Positions 3,703 through 12,218 of a stretch of DNA of 22,599 nucleotides are shown here, in pieces. The position numbers and the translations under genes were made by a program. How positions within the stretch are numbered: position 1 is the first letter of the stretch; the number at the start of each line of letters is the position of its first letter. The stretch spans positions 1 through 22,599 of IMG/VR virus record IMGVR_UViG_3300048839_000706; one strand, given 5' to 3'. Below the pieces are notes generated by a model. It was given only the letters and a program-made list of their open reading frames with translations. It had not been told where the DNA came from and did not search any database. Source of the DNA: a virus.

Positions 3703-4872
3703 TTAACGCACAGCAGGGACCGCGAAGGCGACACGCTTGGAAAGCAGCGCACGCGATAGGTCCTGTTCTTTGCCCACGTACTTCTCGGTTGTGCCGATGC
3801 TGCGGTGGCGGAGCTGGGCGCGAATCTGGTCCCACTCGTAGCCGTTTGAGCGCATGAGGTGGGCGCAGGTGCGGCGCATGTCGTGGGCAGTGATGGGCTT
3901 ATTGAGGGCGGCACGGGTGCGGCGTTCGACAATCTGGAGAATGGCGCGGGGGGTGAGGCCGCGAGCGGGGGTGAAGCCACGCAGGCCGAGGGCGGGGATA
4001 TGATCACCCCGCAGCAGGGGCTGGAAGACAGGGACGCTGCCGGTGATTTGAGAAGCGGCATCCGCACGGCTGTTCCACGCATCGACGAAGGCGAAGATCA
4101 ACGCGTGGGCGGTGGCGTCGATGCCCACAGGATCGACGTTTGAACGCTTGCCACGCACGCGGACCTCAAAACAATCGCGGCCCGGGGTGATTGAGTCGGG
4201 CGTGATGCGGGCGATCTCGGCAGCGCGCAGGCCGGACGTGATGCCCAGATACATGAGGGCGAGATCACGCAGGCCGGTGAGGGTGTGCAGCTCGGCGGTG
4301 AACGATTCAAACACGTGGTTGACCTGCGCGAGCGTGAGGCGCTGGCCGTACTGCTCAAGCGCGGGGCGGTTTGAGGTCTTATCTGGCGCGGGGTTCTTCG
4401 TCGATGCGGCCAGACGGAACTGGCGCTGTGCTTCGATAATAAAGACGAAGTCGCCGCCGTTTTGCGGGATGACGGTTTGTTCATCCAGCGCGCGGATGAA
4501 GTGGCGGACGGCGGCCATGTGGCGGGTGATGGTCGAAGACGTTAAGCCTTCGCGCTTGGCGTGGGCGATATAGTCGGTGACACGGGCGCGGGTGGGCATG
4601 GCCATGGGGTCCCAATAAAAGGTATAGTCTTCATCTGAATGGCGGGCCACGTGGGCGCCCAGAAACGCGCAGAAGCCCGCGAGCGAACCGAGGTAAGCGC
4701 GCATGGTGTGGCGTTCGTGGCGGCTGCCGGGCAGGGCTTCGATATGGTTGATGACTGATTCCAGCGCGGCCTGCGGGTCAAAATAATCCTGCCAGTGGGG
4801 CGCATGGGCGCGGTGAGCATCGGATTGCGTTAAGGTCGGGTTGTGATGTACAATATCAGTGCGAGCCAACAT
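3703..4872 (-). CDS. Tyrosine recombinase / integrase 1 (389 aa)
   Basis: Phage-type tyrosine recombinase that breaks and rejoins DNA through a 3'-phosphotyrosine. The N-terminal core-binding domain is about 35-130 (HTMRAYLGSLAGFCAFLG), the catalytic domain about 175-375. The catalytic set is visible: R216 in TSGLRAAEI, K242 in RGKRSN, H330-x-x-R333 in AHDMRR, H356 in LRHRS and the nucleophile Y365 in TEKYVG. Length is normal for a phage integrase. ATG 4872 follows GGAG in a leader sharing 17 nt with the parA leader. Transcription probably comes from the leftward promoter at 4999-5027, with a terminator-like hairpin in between. It could be the integrase, or a resolvase of a plasmid-like prophage; a second recombinase lies 1.2 kb away. 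Confidence 0.9.
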   Translation of the reverse strand: MLARTDIVHHNPTLTQSDAHRAHAPHWQDYFDPQAALESVINHIEALPGSRHERHTMRAYLGSLAGFCAFLGAHVARHSDEDYTFYWDPMAMPTRARVTDYIAHAKREGLTSSTITRHMAAVRHFIRALDEQTVIPQNGGDFVFIIEAQRQFRLAASTKNPAPDKTSNRPALEQYGQRLTLAQVNHVFESFTAELHTLTGLRDLALMYLGITSGLRAAEIARITPDSITPGRDCFEVRVRGKRSNVDPVGIDATAHALIFAFVDAWNSRADAASQITGSVPVFQPLLRGDHIPALGLRGFTPARGLTPRAILQIVERRTRAALNKPITAHDMRRTCAHLMRSNGYEWDQIRAQLRHRSIGTTEKYVGKEQDLSRALLSKRVAFAVPAVR

Positions 4873-5070: not shown

Positions 5071-5289
5071 ATGAAGTTCAGAATCAAATTGAAGGACGCG
5101 CACAAAGAATCAGGCCTTTCGCCGTGGGCGGTCGCGAAGAAGGTGGGGCTGGCTCAAAACACTGTACGGAAGTACGTGGAGTCGGATTTCATAGACGCGG
5201 AAAAGATCGACGCGGACCTCATCGCCCTTATTGAGTTTTGTGGTCGAGACTGGCGGGATCCGTCGGTTATCGAAGTTTTACGAGACTAG
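5071..5289 (+). CDS. Small Xre/Cro-like HTH transcriptional regulator
   Basis: A 72-aa DNA-binding protein. Residues 14-38 give a helix-turn-helix of the Cro/CI type: SGLSPWAVAKKVGLAQNTVR, with the conserved Ala and Gly at the turn and TVRKYV as start of the recognition helix. The C-terminal part (ADLIALIEFCGRDW) resembles the end of short Xre proteins that act on DNA as dimers. ATG 5071 is 7 nt downstream of AAAGGA. It is transcribed from the near-consensus promoter at 5015-5043, which is covered by repeated half-sites, so autoregulation and control of the divergent integrase are likely. It could be either a Cro-like or a CI-like protein. No peptidase or oligomerisation domain is present, so it is too short for a full lambda-type CI. 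Confidence 0.75.
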   Translation: MKFRIKLKDAHKESGLSPWAVAKKVGLAQNTVRKYVESDFIDAEKIDADLIALIEFCGRDWRDPSVIEVLRD

Positions 5290-5307
5290 CTCATAAGGAT
5301 GGGTGAC

Positions 5308-5811
5308 ATGCGTAAATTCTTTGTGATGGGCCTGCTGGTATTGCTGGTGGCGGGCGTGGCGATGGGGCAGGATGTGGAGACACCCACAGAATGCCCGACA
5401 GGCGCGGCGGTGTTTGAGGCGCTGGCCAGCATGGCCGGTGAGCTGGACACCGAAGGCATGGAAACGCTGGCGGTGCTGGACCTGCTGCGGGCGGCGATCA
5501 GTGAATACACGGTGGCCTGCACGGGGCTGAACTTCAGCAGTGAGCAGGACGGGATGCAGCCGGTGATTGGGCCGGTGGAAATTCCCGAGGGTATTTACCG
5601 CGTAACGGCAACGACTGAGGGTGGAATTATCTCAAAGATTGACGTTTTGAGCGGTGAATGCGGTGGCTATGGTGGTTCGCTGGTTTCAGCACCTAAGGGA
5701 CAAGCCAATAACGGGGCGCAGGTGGTCTTTGAATCGGCAGGGTGTGAGGCGCTGGTAAGCATTACGCTTTCTACCGATGCATGGACATTGGCATTTGAGA
5801 AGCTGCGCTAA
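5308..5811 (+). CDS. Secreted hypothetical protein in the lysogeny module
   Basis: Start chosen at ATG 5308, eight bases after AAGGA; the earlier ATG at 5299 lies on top of that ribosome site. The 167-aa product begins MRKFFVMGLLVLLVAGVAMG followed by Q, a clear signal peptide with a likely cut after AMG. There is no lipobox Cys, so it is secreted rather than a lipoprotein. Four cysteines in the mature part (TECPTG, VACTG, GECGG, AGCEA) could form two disulfides. The C-terminal half (IPEGIYRVTATTEGG...FESAGCEALVSITL) is beta-rich and looks like a small sandwich fold. Family not recognised. It lies 18 nt after the HTH gene on the same strand, hence probably expressed with it in lysogeny: a candidate conversion gene. 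Confidence 0.65.
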   Translation: MRKFFVMGLLVLLVAGVAMGQDVETPTECPTGAAVFEALASMAGELDTEGMETLAVLDLLRAAISEYTVACTGLNFSSEQDGMQPVIGPVEIPEGIYRVTATTEGGIISKIDVLSGECGGYGGSLVSAPKGQANNGAQVVFESAGCEALVSITLSTDAWTLAFEKLR

Positions 5812-5817
5812 CGGATA

Positions 5818-5848
5818 AAAAAGCACCCCCCTACCCGTTGTGTGCTTG
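5818..5848 (-). terminator. Leftward terminator for integrase 2
   Basis: Stem AAGCAC (5821-5826) with GTGCTT (5842-5847). Read on the - strand the hairpin is followed by a run of six Ts (GTGCTTTTTTAT), so it would end transcripts coming leftward from integrase 2. There is no T-run on the + side. Confidence 0.55.
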
Positions 5849-5889
5849 GCTGCGACACGGATAGAGGGGCGAGGGATCAGGGCGCTGAC

Positions 5890-5930: not shown

Positions 5931-5952
5931 TTGCGCACCTTAACAACTGAAT

Positions 5953-5986: not shown

Positions 5987-6007
5987 CTCAATTGTTCGGT
6001 GAAACAG

Positions 6008-6042
6008 TCGGGGTACTGGGATTTGAACCCAGGGCCTCTTGC
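6008..6042 (-). other. attP: Candidate attP core: 3' end of a tRNA gene
   Basis: Read on the - strand, this holds the 3' half of a tRNA. It has the 3' arm of an anticodon stem (GCAAG), a variable loop AGGCC, a perfect T-arm (CTGGG, loop TTCAAAT, CCCAG), and the acceptor strand TACCCCG plus A. The 5' half (acceptor, D-arm, anticodon) is absent and no CCA is encoded, so it is not a working gene. Tyrosine integrases commonly use tRNA 3' ends as the attachment core, and this one lies 50 bp from the 3' end of integrase 2. The acceptor end CCCCGA is reminiscent of tRNA-Pro, but the anticodon is missing, so identity is uncertain. Confidence 0.75.
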
Positions 6043-6092: not shown

Positions 6093-6977
6093 TTACCCTT
6101 CCTTTTTGAACTCAATAATGCGCTGCGGTGCTGTCACTGTGGCTAGGTCTTGCAGTGCTTTTTCAGCGCTTTCGTAGTCTGCCGGGTAATAGTGTTCTAG
6201 GGTGATCGTCACGGACGAGTGACCCAGAGCGGCGGCGGCGATGGAAGGCGCGATGCGGGCATCTGCAAATTGGTGGCCCTTGCGGTGACGCAGGGAGTGA
6301 CTGCCGAGCGAGCGCACGTTTGCAGCGATGCAAGCGCGGCGGACCACCTGCCCGACTTGAGCCGATGAGAGGGGATTACGACGGCGAGAGAACACATACT
6401 CGCCGTGATAACGGCGGCGCAGCAGCCATTTACGCAGGGCGGCGGCGCATTCTTCACCAAAGGATACGGGGCGGGTCTTTTGACCCTTTTCAGTCACGAT
6501 AGCACGGCGGGCGGTGAAATCAATATCATTCACCTTGAGGCCCGCCGCCCCGCCAGCGCGACAACCGGTATCTGCAAGAAACATAATCAGCGCATAATCG
6601 CGCGGCTTGTGCCATGTGATTTTCAGGATCGCTTCTAGTTCACCGTCGGTCATCGCTTTTTCACGAGGGCGGGCGAGATGGGCTTTGCGGGTCTTGATGG
6701 CATGGGCCGGTGACTTCTCCAGCTCTTCGATCTCAATGAGCCAATTAAAAAAACATTTGATCGACTTGACATGCTTATTGCGCGTAGCGAGGGCATAGCC
6801 GCGCTTGTCTCTTAGGGTGGCGGCATAGTCGATCAGCATGGCGGGGCGGATGCTTTGCACGGGCGTTTCGCTGCCGAGGGCTTCGACGAAGGGGGTGAGC
6901 ACATCTTGATACGTTCGCCGCGTGGTGCGGTTATCGTAGCGGGATAGGAACAGGTTCACAGCGATTGCGAGCTTCAT
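6093..6977 (-). CDS. Tyrosine recombinase / integrase 2 (294 aa, XerC/D-like size)
   Basis: Site-specific recombinase, likely the one acting at the adjacent tRNA-derived attP. Residues 1-95 form the SAM-like core-binding domain (RTYQDVLTPFVEAL, RNKHVKSIKCFFNWLIE); the catalytic domain is about 105-275. Visible catalytic residues: R140 in DTGCRAGG, K164/K167 in TEKGQKTRP, H227-x-x-R230 in SHSLRH, H253 in ALGHSS and the nucleophile Y263 in LEHYYP. There is no separate arm-binding domain, so it is close in size to XerC/D and to short phage or integron-type recombinases. ATG 6977 is preceded by TGGAGAAG. It is leftward, with attP and a leftward terminator downstream. No clear promoter was seen in the 228 bp upstream. 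Confidence 0.9.
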   Translation of the reverse strand: MKLAIAVNLFLSRYDNRTTRRTYQDVLTPFVEALGSETPVQSIRPAMLIDYAATLRDKRGYALATRNKHVKSIKCFFNWLIEIEELEKSPAHAIKTRKAHLARPREKAMTDGELEAILKITWHKPRDYALIMFLADTGCRAGGAAGLKVNDIDFTARRAIVTEKGQKTRPVSFGEECAAALRKWLLRRRYHGEYVFSRRRNPLSSAQVGQVVRRACIAANVRSLGSHSLRHRKGHQFADARIAPSIAAAALGHSSVTITLEHYYPADYESAEKALQDLATVTAPQRIIEFKKEG

Positions 6978-7205
6978 CTATCTCTTCTCCAGAATCCAAG
7001 AACAACCGAGAAAGCAAAAAATGATCGCCTCCGTCGGGTGCGGGCTAATACAGATGTCTCTGTGACCTACAGGCTTTACGGGGTCGCTTTCGTCTGGGCG
7101 ACAACGGGCGGGGGTGCGTGCAGGGCGCCCCTGCCCTACTGACAGTGTACAACCCTGCGGGCTAAAAGATCAACCAAGAGAAACCATGTTATCGGAAGTG
7201 GTGAG
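6978..7205. other. Divergent intergenic region with a perfect hairpin
   Basis: The 228-bp gap between integrase 2 (leftward) and the early small-gene operon (rightward). It contains GCAGGG (7120-7125) and CCCTGC (7129-7134), a perfect stem with a 3-nt loop and no T-run, and the 12-mer TTATCGGAAGTG at 7189-7200. I could not place a convincing sigma70 promoter on either strand, although the early operon needs one here. Confidence 0.4.
7189..7200 (+). repeat. Recurrent 12-mer TTATCGGAAGTG, copy 2
   Basis: Exact copy in non-coding DNA, ending 5 nt before the ATG at 7206, so its GGAAGTG part overlaps the expected ribosome-binding position of the first early gene. Confidence 0.7.
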
Positions 7206-7430
7206 ATGGTGGTGAAACGGCGCTTTGACCCGCGGCAGCGGCTGCGGCCCGGGGTGGAGATTGCCTTTAGGAAACGGATGGTGCGGGTGATCGGTCTGGA
7301 GCACGACAGACACGGGAACCTGCTACGGATACGGGTGCAGTATGTGGGCGGCACAGGACGCTCTACAAACTGGATCAGCAGAGGCAAGACGTTAAACGAA
7401 TTGTTGGACTCGCTCAATAACCAAAACTAG
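7206..7430 (+). CDS. Small basic hypothetical protein (74 aa)
   Basis: First gene of the rightward early operon. It is rich in Arg, with a pattern of short strands (RPGVEIAFRKRMVRVIGLEHD, LLRIRVQYVGG) that looks like a small beta-barrel such as an SH3/Sm-like or KOW-like fold. That is a shape impression, not a family match. It ends with a helix (LNELLDSLNNQN). ATG 7206 is preceded by GGAAGTGGTGAG, the first part of which is the recurrent 12-mer. Twelve bases separate its stop from the next gene. Net positive charge would suit nucleic-acid binding. Confidence 0.55.
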   Translation: MVVKRRFDPRQRLRPGVEIAFRKRMVRVIGLEHDRHGNLLRIRVQYVGGTGRSTNWISRGKTLNELLDSLNNQN

Positions 7431-7442
7431 GACGGTGAAACG

Positions 7443-7793
7443 ATGGTTCAAAACGGCAATGGAGACGGCAGCAGAGAAGGAAAAGACATCCGCAGCGCCT
7501 ATACGACACGCACAATGTCGCCGCTGGACTGGGAGATCAGGATTGCGAACATGCGCGAGAGCCTGATGACGCAGGCCACGAAGATCGCGCAGCTTAAGAA
7601 GGAAGTGGACCGGCTGAGCGTGATCATCGACGAGAGCGACAGCGAGCACGGCATGACACTGGACATGCTGGCGAATGCTGAAGGTGTGCTGAAGGCGATC
7701 AAGAAGATTGCCCTGCTCAATGAGGACCGCGGGGAGATGCTGATGATCCTGCGGCTGGTGGATCGCTACTTTGCAGACCCTAAGCGCGAATGA
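7443..7793 (+). CDS. Small coiled-coil hypothetical protein (116 aa)
   Basis: ATG 7443 follows GACGGTGAAACG. The first 25 residues are polar and probably disordered (GNGDGSREGKD). Residues 27-70 form a likely coiled coil (WEIRIANMRESLM, KIAQLKKEVDRLSVII), and the C-terminal part is helical (LKAIKKIALL, LMILRLVDRYF). No catalytic motif or known family is visible. Its stop TGA shares bases with the ATGATG start of the next gene, so the two are translationally coupled. Confidence 0.55.
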   Translation: MVQNGNGDGSREGKDIRSAYTTRTMSPLDWEIRIANMRESLMTQATKIAQLKKEVDRLSVIIDESDSEHGMTLDMLANAEGVLKAIKKIALLNEDRGEMLMILRLVDRYFADPKRE

Positions 7794-9220: not shown

Positions 9221-10027
9221 ATGGCTAAGCCAATTGTTGTCAATATCACGAACGAAAAAGGCGGGACGGGCAAAACGACGCTGAGCGTCAACATGGCGTC
9301 AGGGCTGGCGGCACGCGGGCGGCGGGTGCTGGTGATTGACAGTGACCCGCAGGGACACGCGACGGTTCGACTAGGGATGAAAAAAGAGCCGTCGATTTAC
9401 AACCTGCTGGTGCGTGATGAGGAATGGGCGCGCTGTGTGCGGGCTGTGCCGCCGGAGCGGTTCGGGATCCCCGGTGAGACGCTGCCGACGGGTAAGCTGT
9501 GGGTGGTTCCGTCGAACGTCGAAACGCGCAATATTGCCCAGAGCTTAGGCGATGCGATGGTGGTGCGCGAGCGACTGGAAGAGCTAGACGGGACGGTGGA
9601 TGTGGTGATCATCGACACCAGCCCTACCCCGAGCTTGCTGCACGGCGCTTTCTACAGCGCGACGGACTACATTGTTTACCCGACTGAGCTGGCGTACACG
9701 TCGTTTGATGGGCTGGTGGAGAGCATCCGCCACCGGATGGCGGCAGACAAGGCGCGCGAGGCGAAGTGGGGAATCCCGCCGATCACGGTGGCCGGTGTGG
9801 TGCCGACGAAGTATCGCAGCCAGACGAACGAACAGAAGAGCAATCTGGATACGCTGCACCAGCAGTTCGGATCACTGGTGTGGAACCCGATCCCGATGCG
9901 GACTTTGTGGCAGGAAAGCGAAAGCCGCGCGCTGCCGGTATATGCAATGGACCCGAACAGCGAAGCGGCGGGCGATGTGTGGGAACTGGTAGACAGATTG
10001 GAGAGTGTGATTTATGCGCGGGCGTAA
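9221..10027 (+). CDS. parA: ParA-type partition ATPase
   Basis: A 268-aa ParA/Soj-family ATPase that forms a dynamic gradient on the nucleoid to distribute DNA copies at division. The deviant Walker A motif is KGGTGKTT (13-20) with the signature Lys13. The A' motif is LVIDSDPQG (D40, D42) and Walker B is VVIIDTSPTP (D132). There is no N-terminal HTH extension, so it is like type Ib or chromosomal Soj proteins rather than P1 ParA; operon autoregulation would then come from another protein. ATG 9221 is preceded by GGAGAAAGCAAGATC. It overlaps the ParB-domain gene by 14 nt. In a phage this points to stable, plasmid-like maintenance or to segregation of the lysogen, although lone ParA homologues also occur. 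Confidence 0.93.
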   Translation: MAKPIVVNITNEKGGTGKTTLSVNMASGLAARGRRVLVIDSDPQGHATVRLGMKKEPSIYNLLVRDEEWARCVRAVPPERFGIPGETLPTGKLWVVPSNVETRNIAQSLGDAMVVRERLEELDGTVDVVIIDTSPTPSLLHGAFYSATDYIVYPTELAYTSFDGLVESIRHRMAADKAREAKWGIPPITVAGVVPTKYRSQTNEQKSNLDTLHQQFGSLVWNPIPMRTLWQESESRALPVYAMDPNSEAAGDVWELVDRLESVIYARA

Positions 10028-12218
10028 GGCTGACAAGGTCGATGTTTTTGGTGAACCCGATAAGACGGAGCTGGAACAGTTCACCGATGAGATTTACGGG
10101 GCGAGTGACCCGGGGTTGGAAACGGGGCGCGTGGTGGCGCGCCCCCTCTCGCTTGGCGATGTGTGGGCGGATGTGAAACAACCGCGGCGGGCGATCCCCG
10201 CGACTTTGCGCCTGCACTGGGACGGGAACCCGAACGACGTGGGCGCGCTGCTGGACGCTTGGGCGAAGGTGGCGGCGGTGGATGACCCCGCGGGCATCTT
10301 GACGAGCAGCGGGGACGGAGTGGACACAGACGGAATGCCGCCGGTGGCGGTGAACTATGTGGAACTGCTGCGGCTGGCGGGCGACATCCGACGGGTGGGA
10401 CTCACGAACCCGATCAGCGTGGTGCGACACCAGAACGGGCAGTACGTGATCCAGAGCGGCGAACGGCGCTTTCTGGCTTACCACATACTACAACGGCAGT
10501 TCGGGGAGAAGTTTGCACGCATCCCCGCGATTGTGGTGGATGGACGCCACAACGTGTGGCGGCAGGCCAGCGAAAACACAGCGCGCCGGAGCCTGAACGC
10601 GATCGGCATGGCGCGGCAGCTGGCGCTGTTGATCATGGACAGCCGCGAGGGCATCGACGGGGTGCGCTACGACGATTACGAAACGCTGGTGGTGCAGGGT
10701 GGGAGTGACCGACGCTACTATGCACAGGTGGCGAACGGGAACATTCACCGCATCCCGAAGGGCATGGGGGAACGCATTCAGGCGGCGATGGGACTGAGTG
10801 AGAAACGCATTGCGGAGTATCGACGCCTGCTGAAGCTGACGGACGATGACGCGGTGAATGATGCGCTGTGGACGCGCGCGGACATTGAAGACTGGGCTGA
10901 AGGCTTCATGCGTGATGTCAGTACCTTACCAATTGGTAAGGTATCGGAAGTGATTGAGCGCCCGAATTGGACGGCGGAAGACCTGCGTACATTGATCGAA
11001 CGCCCGGCGGCAGCGGCCCCGGCAGCGGCGCAGGGAACAGAAGTGGCGATTGTGGACCCCGAGGGGTGGACGATGGGCACGCCGGTCCAGCCGGTGACTC
11101 ATCGTGATGTCTATGCGTGGACGCGCTTGGGCTTTGGCCGCTATAAGCCGATGTACAAGGCGGTATACAAACCGGGTGACCGCTGGTTTTTTGAACGGGT
11201 GCTGCGGACGGGTGAAGGCGATGTGCTGGCGGAAGTTCGCAGCGCGAACGGCGCGGCGTTCTACATCACACGCGATCTGCTGGTGAAGGCGGCCCCGGCA
11301 TCACCAGCCCCTGCACGACGGGACAGCGCGCTGAGCGTGGGCCGGTATGTGTGGGTGGACGTGGACGGAGAAGCGAAATTCGGGGTGATCCGCTACGAGC
11401 GGGAGCAGAACGACGGGTCGAAACTCTACGGGGTGTTCAAATACGACGGCGGCAGCACGCATTATTATGCCGCCGGTGAGCTGACGCCGTTTGAAGGGTC
11501 GCTGCAAGATGTGGCGGCGGAAATCCACAAAGCGCGGGGAACGGTTCCGGCAGCGCCTGCACCGCCGAACGATGAAGCACCCGTGCCGATGCCCCCGCCG
11601 AACCTGCGGGACGAAAGCCAGACCGCGCACTACAACGACGAGCCGGACCCTGAGGGGTGGACCCCGCACATGCGGATGCGGACAAACCGCCGCGCGATGG
11701 TATGGGTGATGGGCAACAACGGTCTGTATGTGGCGACGGGTGAATATCTGGAGTTTGACTCGCAGGTGGCATACGTCAAATCGTTCAGCAGCGGCCAGAA
11801 TATTCTGGCGCTGGTGCGGGCGGATGACGGGCGGATGCGGACTCTACTGCGCGAACGGCTGGTTCCGATTAGAGATAATCGGGAAAAGCCACAAAGCCAA
11901 GTTGAGCAAATGCAGCGGGCCATGAGTTCTGATAATGCGCCTTCTGCGGGGTCAGATGATCGGGTGATTGACCCCAATGCACCGCTGGCGAAAGCGCTGA
12001 ATACTGCGGTGACGCTGGCGATGGTGTACGACAAGGGGGACTTTCAAACGCTGATCGCGGAGGCTGTGCGAATGACACAGGCGCAGGCTTCACAGATGAG
12101 CGAACGTGACGAGCTGGAGGGCTGGATGCAAGCGCTGGCCGAAGGCGTGGACGAACTGCTGGAAATTCTACGGGCAGACCTTGGCGAATACCTCAACTGG
12201 CTAGGCGATACGTACTAA
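10014..12218 (+). CDS. parB: Large ParB-domain protein with extra C-terminal beta modules
   Basis: A 734-aa partner of ParA, more than twice the usual ParB length (about 280-350). The N-terminal ParB/Srx-type domain (about 105-210) has IRRVGLTNPISV, the CTP-binding box SGERR (148-152) and the second box ENTARR (187-192). A helical region to about 300 would hold the centromere-binding HTH (LSEKRIAEYRRLL). Beyond 340 come segments unlike ParB: three beta-rich stretches (352-425, 440-492, 555-618), the first and third introduced by the same hexapeptide DPEGWT (348-353, 545-550). They are separated by Ala/Pro linkers and followed by a helical tail (655-734). The beta stretches look like SH3/KOW-type barrels. 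ATG 10014 follows GGAGAG and overlaps parA. The gene contains a 22-bp palindrome. Confidence 0.8.
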   Translation: MRGRKADKVDVFGEPDKTELEQFTDEIYGASDPGLETGRVVARPLSLGDVWADVKQPRRAIPATLRLHWDGNPNDVGALLDAWAKVAAVDDPAGILTSSGDGVDTDGMPPVAVNYVELLRLAGDIRRVGLTNPISVVRHQNGQYVIQSGERRFLAYHILQRQFGEKFARIPAIVVDGRHNVWRQASENTARRSLNAIGMARQLALLIMDSREGIDGVRYDDYETLVVQGGSDRRYYAQVANGNIHRIPKGMGERIQAAMGLSEKRIAEYRRLLKLTDDDAVNDALWTRADIEDWAEGFMRDVSTLPIGKVSEVIERPNWTAEDLRTLIERPAAAAPAAAQGTEVAIVDPEGWTMGTPVQPVTHRDVYAWTRLGFGRYKPMYKAVYKPGDRWFFERVLRTGEGDVLAEVRSANGAAFYITRDLLVKAAPASPAPARRDSALSVGRYVWVDVDGEAKFGVIRYEREQNDGSKLYGVFKYDGGSTHYYAAGELTPFEGSLQDVAAEIHKARGTVPAAPAPPNDEAPVPMPPPNLRDESQTAHYNDEPDPEGWTPHMRMRTNRRAMVWVMGNNGLYVATGEYLEFDSQVAYVKSFSSGQNILALVRADDGRMRTLLRERLVPIRDNREKPQSQVEQMQRAMSSDNAPSAGSDDRVIDPNAPLAKALNTAVTLAMVYDKGDFQTLIAEAVRMTQAQASQMSERDELEGWMQALAEGVDELLEILRADLGEYLNWLGDTY
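10922..10943. repeat. 22-bp perfect palindrome inside parB
   Basis: TACCTTACCAA is followed at once by its exact reverse complement, with no spacer. It encodes residues 303-310 of the ParB-like protein and ends at the one-mismatch 12-mer copy GTATCGGAAGTG (10941-10952). Candidate centromere (parS) or operator; not proven. Confidence 0.7.
10941..10952 (+). repeat. Recurrent 12-mer, one-mismatch copy (GTATCGGAAGTG)
   Basis: Differs from the exact copies only at the first base. In frame as Val-Ser-Glu-Val, and overlaps the right end of the 22-bp palindrome by 3 nt. Confidence 0.5.

Follow-up and report, generated by a model that had tools for sequence, protein, structure and literature searches.

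The tRNA-like segment and its gene neighbourhood

The stretch of DNA analysed here, referred to as the window, comprises all 22,599 nucleotides of the IMG/VR virus record IMGVR_UViG_3300048839_000706. On its minus strand, a short segment resembling part of a tRNA gene lies directly behind the gene for a tyrosine integrase, int2. A 29-bp piece of this segment is also present in one other IMG/VR contig, IMGVR_UViG_3300002920_000033 (31,238 bp), which is referred to as G001 (att locus L001/L007). The features of the locus are the following:

3703..4872, minus strand: int1, a second tyrosine recombinase of 389 aa (PF00589, E=2.2e-11)
5071..5289, plus strand: small helix-turn-helix-like protein (54% identity to G001)
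5299..5811, plus strand: putative secreted protein beside the attP, on the far side from int2 (N-terminal signal-like sequence)
5817..5869, minus strand: terminator-like hairpin with a U-run (arms 5826-5837 and 5858-5869, tail 5817-5822)
5933..5946, minus strand: conserved 14-bp element TTGTTAAGGTGCGC, 60 bp beyond the core, a candidate for an accessory or arm site
6007..6042, minus strand: predicted attP core, made up of the 3' half of a probable tRNA-Pro (sequence, relatives, T-stem covariation)
6016..6032, minus strand: T-arm within the core, inverted repeats with a 7-bp spacer (sequence, symmetry)
6093..6977, minus strand: int2, tyrosine integrase of 294 aa with a core-binding and a catalytic domain and without an arm-binding domain (Pfam, structure match)
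9221..10027, plus strand: ParA partition ATPase (PF13614, E=9.4e-28)
10014..12218, plus strand: large ParB-like protein, encoded in overlap with the end of parA (ParB_N, E=6.4e-4, short of the curated cut-off)

Read directly from the window, positions 6042-6007 of the minus strand are GCAAGAGGCCCTGGGTTCAAATCCCAGTACCCCGAC. This sequence can be divided into GCAAG, the 3' strand of an anticodon stem; AGGCC, a variable loop of 5 nt; a T-arm in which CTGGG and CCCAG form five perfect pairs around TTCAAAT; the 3' acceptor strand TACCCCG; the discriminator A, at which the tRNA half ends; and a final C. The 35-mer 6008-6042 occurs once in the window, and with the adjoining C (of CCCCGAC) it makes up the 36-mer 6007-6042, which is the conserved unit. 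Neither ARAGORN nor Rfam identified a complete tRNA anywhere in the window, and the 5' half of the tRNA is therefore absent. A sequence-only reading of this DNA had proposed an attP derived from the 3' end of a tRNA next to int2. The T-arm, variable loop and acceptor strand that it named were all found, as was the lack of the 5' half, and the distance of 50 bp between the core and the int2 stop codon was confirmed.

The int2 product matches PF00589 (E=9.7e-29) and, from residue 17, the SAM-like domain PF02899; its nearest solved structure is that of XerA, aligned from profile position 5. As in the simple, Xer-like tyrosine integrases, core-binding and catalytic domains are present and an N-terminal arm-binding domain is lacking. 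Residues R140, K164, H227, R230, H253 and Y263/Y264 occupy invariant columns in four relatives, and we presume their catalytic roles from the known motifs of the family. Judged by its sequence, int2 is a simple, arm-less tyrosine recombinase in the terms of a survey which counted simple recombinases in 27 phages and an arm-binding domain in 410 (PMC8138268).

Beyond int2 and the core follow the gene for the secreted protein, the small helix-turn-helix-like gene and int1, in an order that matches G001; in the relative G002, int1 and the secreted protein are likewise found on the side of the core away from int2. The int1 product is 85% identical in G001 (where int2 is 66% identical) and 33% identical in G002. 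No match in Pfam or PHROG was obtained for the protein encoded at 5071..5289. The secreted-looking protein is 61% identical in G001 and 38% identical in G002, and at the equivalent place L032 carries a small Excalibur-like protein (7143-7487). It is possible that the secreted protein beside the attP represents lysogenic-conversion cargo.

ParA is 82%, 41% and 44% identical in G001, G002 and G003, respectively, and the ParB-like protein is conserved in G001 and G002. With respect to the partition genes by which a phage-plasmid is recognised, ParA is clear and the ParB-like match is weak. Integration functions (integrase and attP) and partition functions (ParA) thus coexist in this phage family.

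Conservation of the core and its probable assignment to int2

G001 is collinear with the window across most genes, including those for the portal, terminase, primase, ParB-like protein, ParA, int2, secreted protein, int1 and tail protein. The entire 36-mer is identical in G001 at the same location (36/36). Though non-coding, it exceeds every other exact word shared by the two sequences, the next, in a coding region, being 35. Two scans of IMG/VR with int2 yielded five relatives sharing 41-66% identity with it, the set of six integrases thus consisting of the window, L007, L008, L009, L031 and L032. In all six family members, the window included, a tRNA 3' half ending in CCCCGA is positioned closely behind the integrase gene. 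Across the family the T-stem is paired in 100% of cells, and two of the five pairs have changed on both sides; the covariation score, calculated from only five distinct sequences, was matched by one of 500 shuffles. The window, G001, G002, G003 and the L031 and L032 stretches all lack a recognisable complete tRNA, these contigs being fragmentary.

Decaying tRNA genes do occur in phages, and the segment might be the remains of such a gene, unconnected with integration. This is extremely unlikely, given that six divergent phages have the same 3' half close behind homologous integrases and none of them has the 5' half, and that a decaying gene would not hold a paired T-stem at so constant a place.

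A different possibility is that the core is a relic, left over in a phage which has given up integration and persists as a plasmid prophage stabilised by ParAB. Five of the six (window, G001, G002, G003 and L032) have ParA close to the integrase, and the contigs are assembled in unintegrated form; both observations would be consistent with such a history. However, the core shows no difference between the window and G001, whose flanking spacers are ~59% identical (147 of 251 alignment columns when gaps are counted), compensatory changes keep the T-stem paired, and the catalytic residues of int2 are intact. These are signs of ongoing selection, and we regard a relic as very unlikely.

The core might also be the target of int1, with int2 performing other work, for example dimer resolution. 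In the window, G001, G002 and G388, the genes of both recombinases are no more than ~3 kb away from the core, which would suit this arrangement, but the core is located directly behind int2 in six of six records. Furthermore, G003 and G387 have a recombinase of the int2 type only, and the core is nevertheless present; int1 was not detected in these two contigs, which are fragments and might be truncated. Int2 is therefore favoured, subject to the caveat of truncation. The evidence supports, although it does not prove, that the core belongs to int2 rather than int1, and we consider its use by int1 to be quite unlikely.

In an integrated prophage, host DNA is found on one side of each copy of the core, and an attR-like end would bear the same half of a tRNA as the window does. 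The window could in this case represent an attL or attR end. Nevertheless, the contig extends 6 kb to one side of the core and 16.6 kb to the other, through phage genes that are shared with G001 and arranged in the same order, and one copy of the core was found in every record searched. A single copy flanked in both directions by conserved phage genes argues for attP rather than attL or attR, and a prophage end is hardly credible. Exact terminal overlaps, which would indicate circularity, were found neither in the window nor in G001. The assembled molecule is the attP form, that is, packaged, circular or extrachromosomal and not integrated at the core. The earlier proposal that phage sequence on either side marks the unintegrated form is thus borne out by the synteny with G001 (L001/L007) and G002.

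The segment combines a tRNA 3' half that ends at the discriminator base and lacks the 5' half, an adjoining tyrosine integrase with intact catalytic residues, and a single copy with phage DNA on either side, as is characteristic of phage attP sites of the tRNA type. We consider it very likely that positions 6007-6042 are the attP core of a temperate tailed phage, used by the adjacent int2 on a tRNA-Pro attB. That this is an attP at a tRNA gene, a known kind of site here encountered in a new phage family, is well supported. A likely integration site and its cognate integrase can now be given for an uncultured family of temperate phages.

Proposed integration into a proline tRNA gene and the search for the host

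A core consisting of a tRNA 3' half is the usual route by which such phages integrate without breaking the tRNA. In mycobacteriophages, attP/attB cores are typically 30-45 bp long and include the 3' half of the tRNA (PMC10865867). In the window, int2 would recombine the core with attB, the corresponding 3' half of a proline-tRNA gene in the host. The phage core would supply the entire 3' half of the tRNA, and the 5' half of the host gene together with the phage copy would form a functional tRNA. The displaced host 3' half would come to lie beside int2, forming a direct repeat at the opposite prophage end. The inverted repeats of the T-arm are the putative core-binding sites of the integrase and the 7-bp spacer between them the putative overlap region. 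Because a proline anticodon loop 5' of the core is absent from five of the six relatives, in which the tRNA-like sequence stops at the anticodon stem, we infer that strand exchange would take place within the T-loop, the 7 bp enclosed by the T-stem inverted repeats.

The identity of the tRNA was approached through its 3' end. The 25-mer CTGGGTTCAAATCCCAGTACCCCGA occurs in four GTDB r220 genomes, one of Planctomycetota and three of Patescibacteria, and each time forms the 3' end of a tRNA-Pro(TGG) gene; all the tRNA-Pro genes of these four genomes have at least two mismatches to the 35-mer. The L008 core follows the letters TGGGGT, which can be read as a Pro(GGG) anticodon loop. Since the 25-mer is always found in tRNA-Pro and L008 has a Pro(GGG) loop, the source is most likely a proline tRNA.

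The sequence-only reading had held that the segment would name the host. Its tRNA target could be refined to a likely proline isotype, but the host itself was not found: the exact 35-mer has no match in GTDB r220 (84,980 species genomes, contigs of 3 kb or more), and the closest tRNAs seen (L004 and L006), rather than being identical over 6008-6042, differ from the segment at two positions. Among 380 sampled Patescibacteria, the phylum of L004, the best match had two mismatches and came from a genome already known, and the segment had no match in a Thermomicrobium plasmid record. Searches of IMG/VR with the 25-mer and shorter patterns recovered only the attP of G001, and the integrated prophages bounded by direct repeats of the segment that had been anticipated were not found in these pattern searches.

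Our suspicion as to the host phylum falls on Chloroflexota. The best-listed plasmid matches of ParA include one from a Leptolinea plasmid (31%), and L032 encodes a protein with Thr/Pro-rich linkers, a type which we take to be associated with Chloroflexota. The prediction for a host genome is a tRNA-Pro gene that starts with CGGGGTA and ends in the 36-mer.

The 14-bp element and comparison with known integration systems

On the side of the core away from int2, all six relatives have the 14-bp element TTGTTAAGSTGCGC at a distance of 60-73 bp from the core, in a spacer that has otherwise diverged. With the version shared by the window and L007 used as the query, the four other relatives, which lie outside the definition of the element, were scored; the chance of a match was 0.0002, 0.0002, 0.00125 and <0.00005. 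The element may serve as an accessory binding site or a promoter, or may belong to an RNA, and we take it to resemble Xer half-sites in part. An inverted repeat around the core, AACAACTGAA/TTCAGTTGTT, was considered as a pair of arm sites and rejected, its left copy being missing from L007.

The element is followed by hairpins, and at least five of the six relatives have a T-run with the last of these. Hairpins with T-runs are present at the equivalent place in L007, L008, L009 and L031 and are less clear in L032. The hairpin at 5817..5869, read from the sequence, would end transcripts crossing the core; it is not in the list produced by a simple terminator scan, in which the loop limit was 8.

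What is new here is the occurrence of an arm-less integrase together with a 14-bp element near the attP core. One may picture a phage lineage with an arm-less Xer-like integrase and a composite attP, in which the tRNA-Pro T-arm serves as the core and TTGTTAAGSTGCGC, spaced almost constantly from it, is bound by int2 or a partner to give direction, and which, having ParA and a ParB-like protein, could switch as a prophage between an integrated state and a partitioned plasmid. We put this forward tentatively, as a rather unlikely picture in its entirety. An arm-less integrase with a conserved element close to its attP provides a compact system in which to study direction control by simple tyrosine integrases.

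The attP of phage Brujita is, as we understand it, situated within the 5' end of the int gene, whereas that of the window is downstream of int and has a conserved element beyond it. As far as the account in PMC8138268 (citing Lunt and Hatfull 2016) describes them, the Brujita-type 'simple' integrases are, like int2, Xer-like enzymes of temperate phages with core-binding and catalytic domains only. The tRNA attP sites of mycobacteriophages (PMC10865867) are similar to that of the window in core length (36 bp here), in containing the tRNA 3' half, in adjoining the integrase gene and in the rebuilding of the tRNA; their integrases, however, are lambda-like and use arm-type sites, whereas int2 is without an arm-binding domain and has a probable tRNA-Pro target. 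In the case of Pseudomonas phage PaP3, the T-arm of a tRNA-Pro has been proposed as the att site, as in the window (PMC8540360). There, however, the segment is 21 bp long and has no adjacent recombinase, and the lifestyle of the phage is disputed, while the core of the window adjoins an integrase and is conserved in relatives.

Phages with tRNA-dependent lysogeny also use a tyrosine integrase to enter a tRNA gene (PMC10865867), but combine a core of ~10 bp with a whole phage-encoded tRNA of the same isotype. The core described here is 36 bp long and the contigs yielded no phage tRNA, the window itself being a fragment; a phage-encoded tRNA and tRNA-dependent lysogeny were rejected on these grounds.

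Two further phage contigs, L014 and L015, carry a tRNA-Pro(CGG)-like 3' half directly after longer integrases of another type. They share with the window a tRNA-Pro-like 3' half just behind a tyrosine integrase; in contrast to the window, their integrases were missed by the searches with int2, and the tRNA-like sequence extends into the anticodon loop. Because these integrases are of another kind, an attP made of a tRNA-Pro 3' half has probably arisen more than once.
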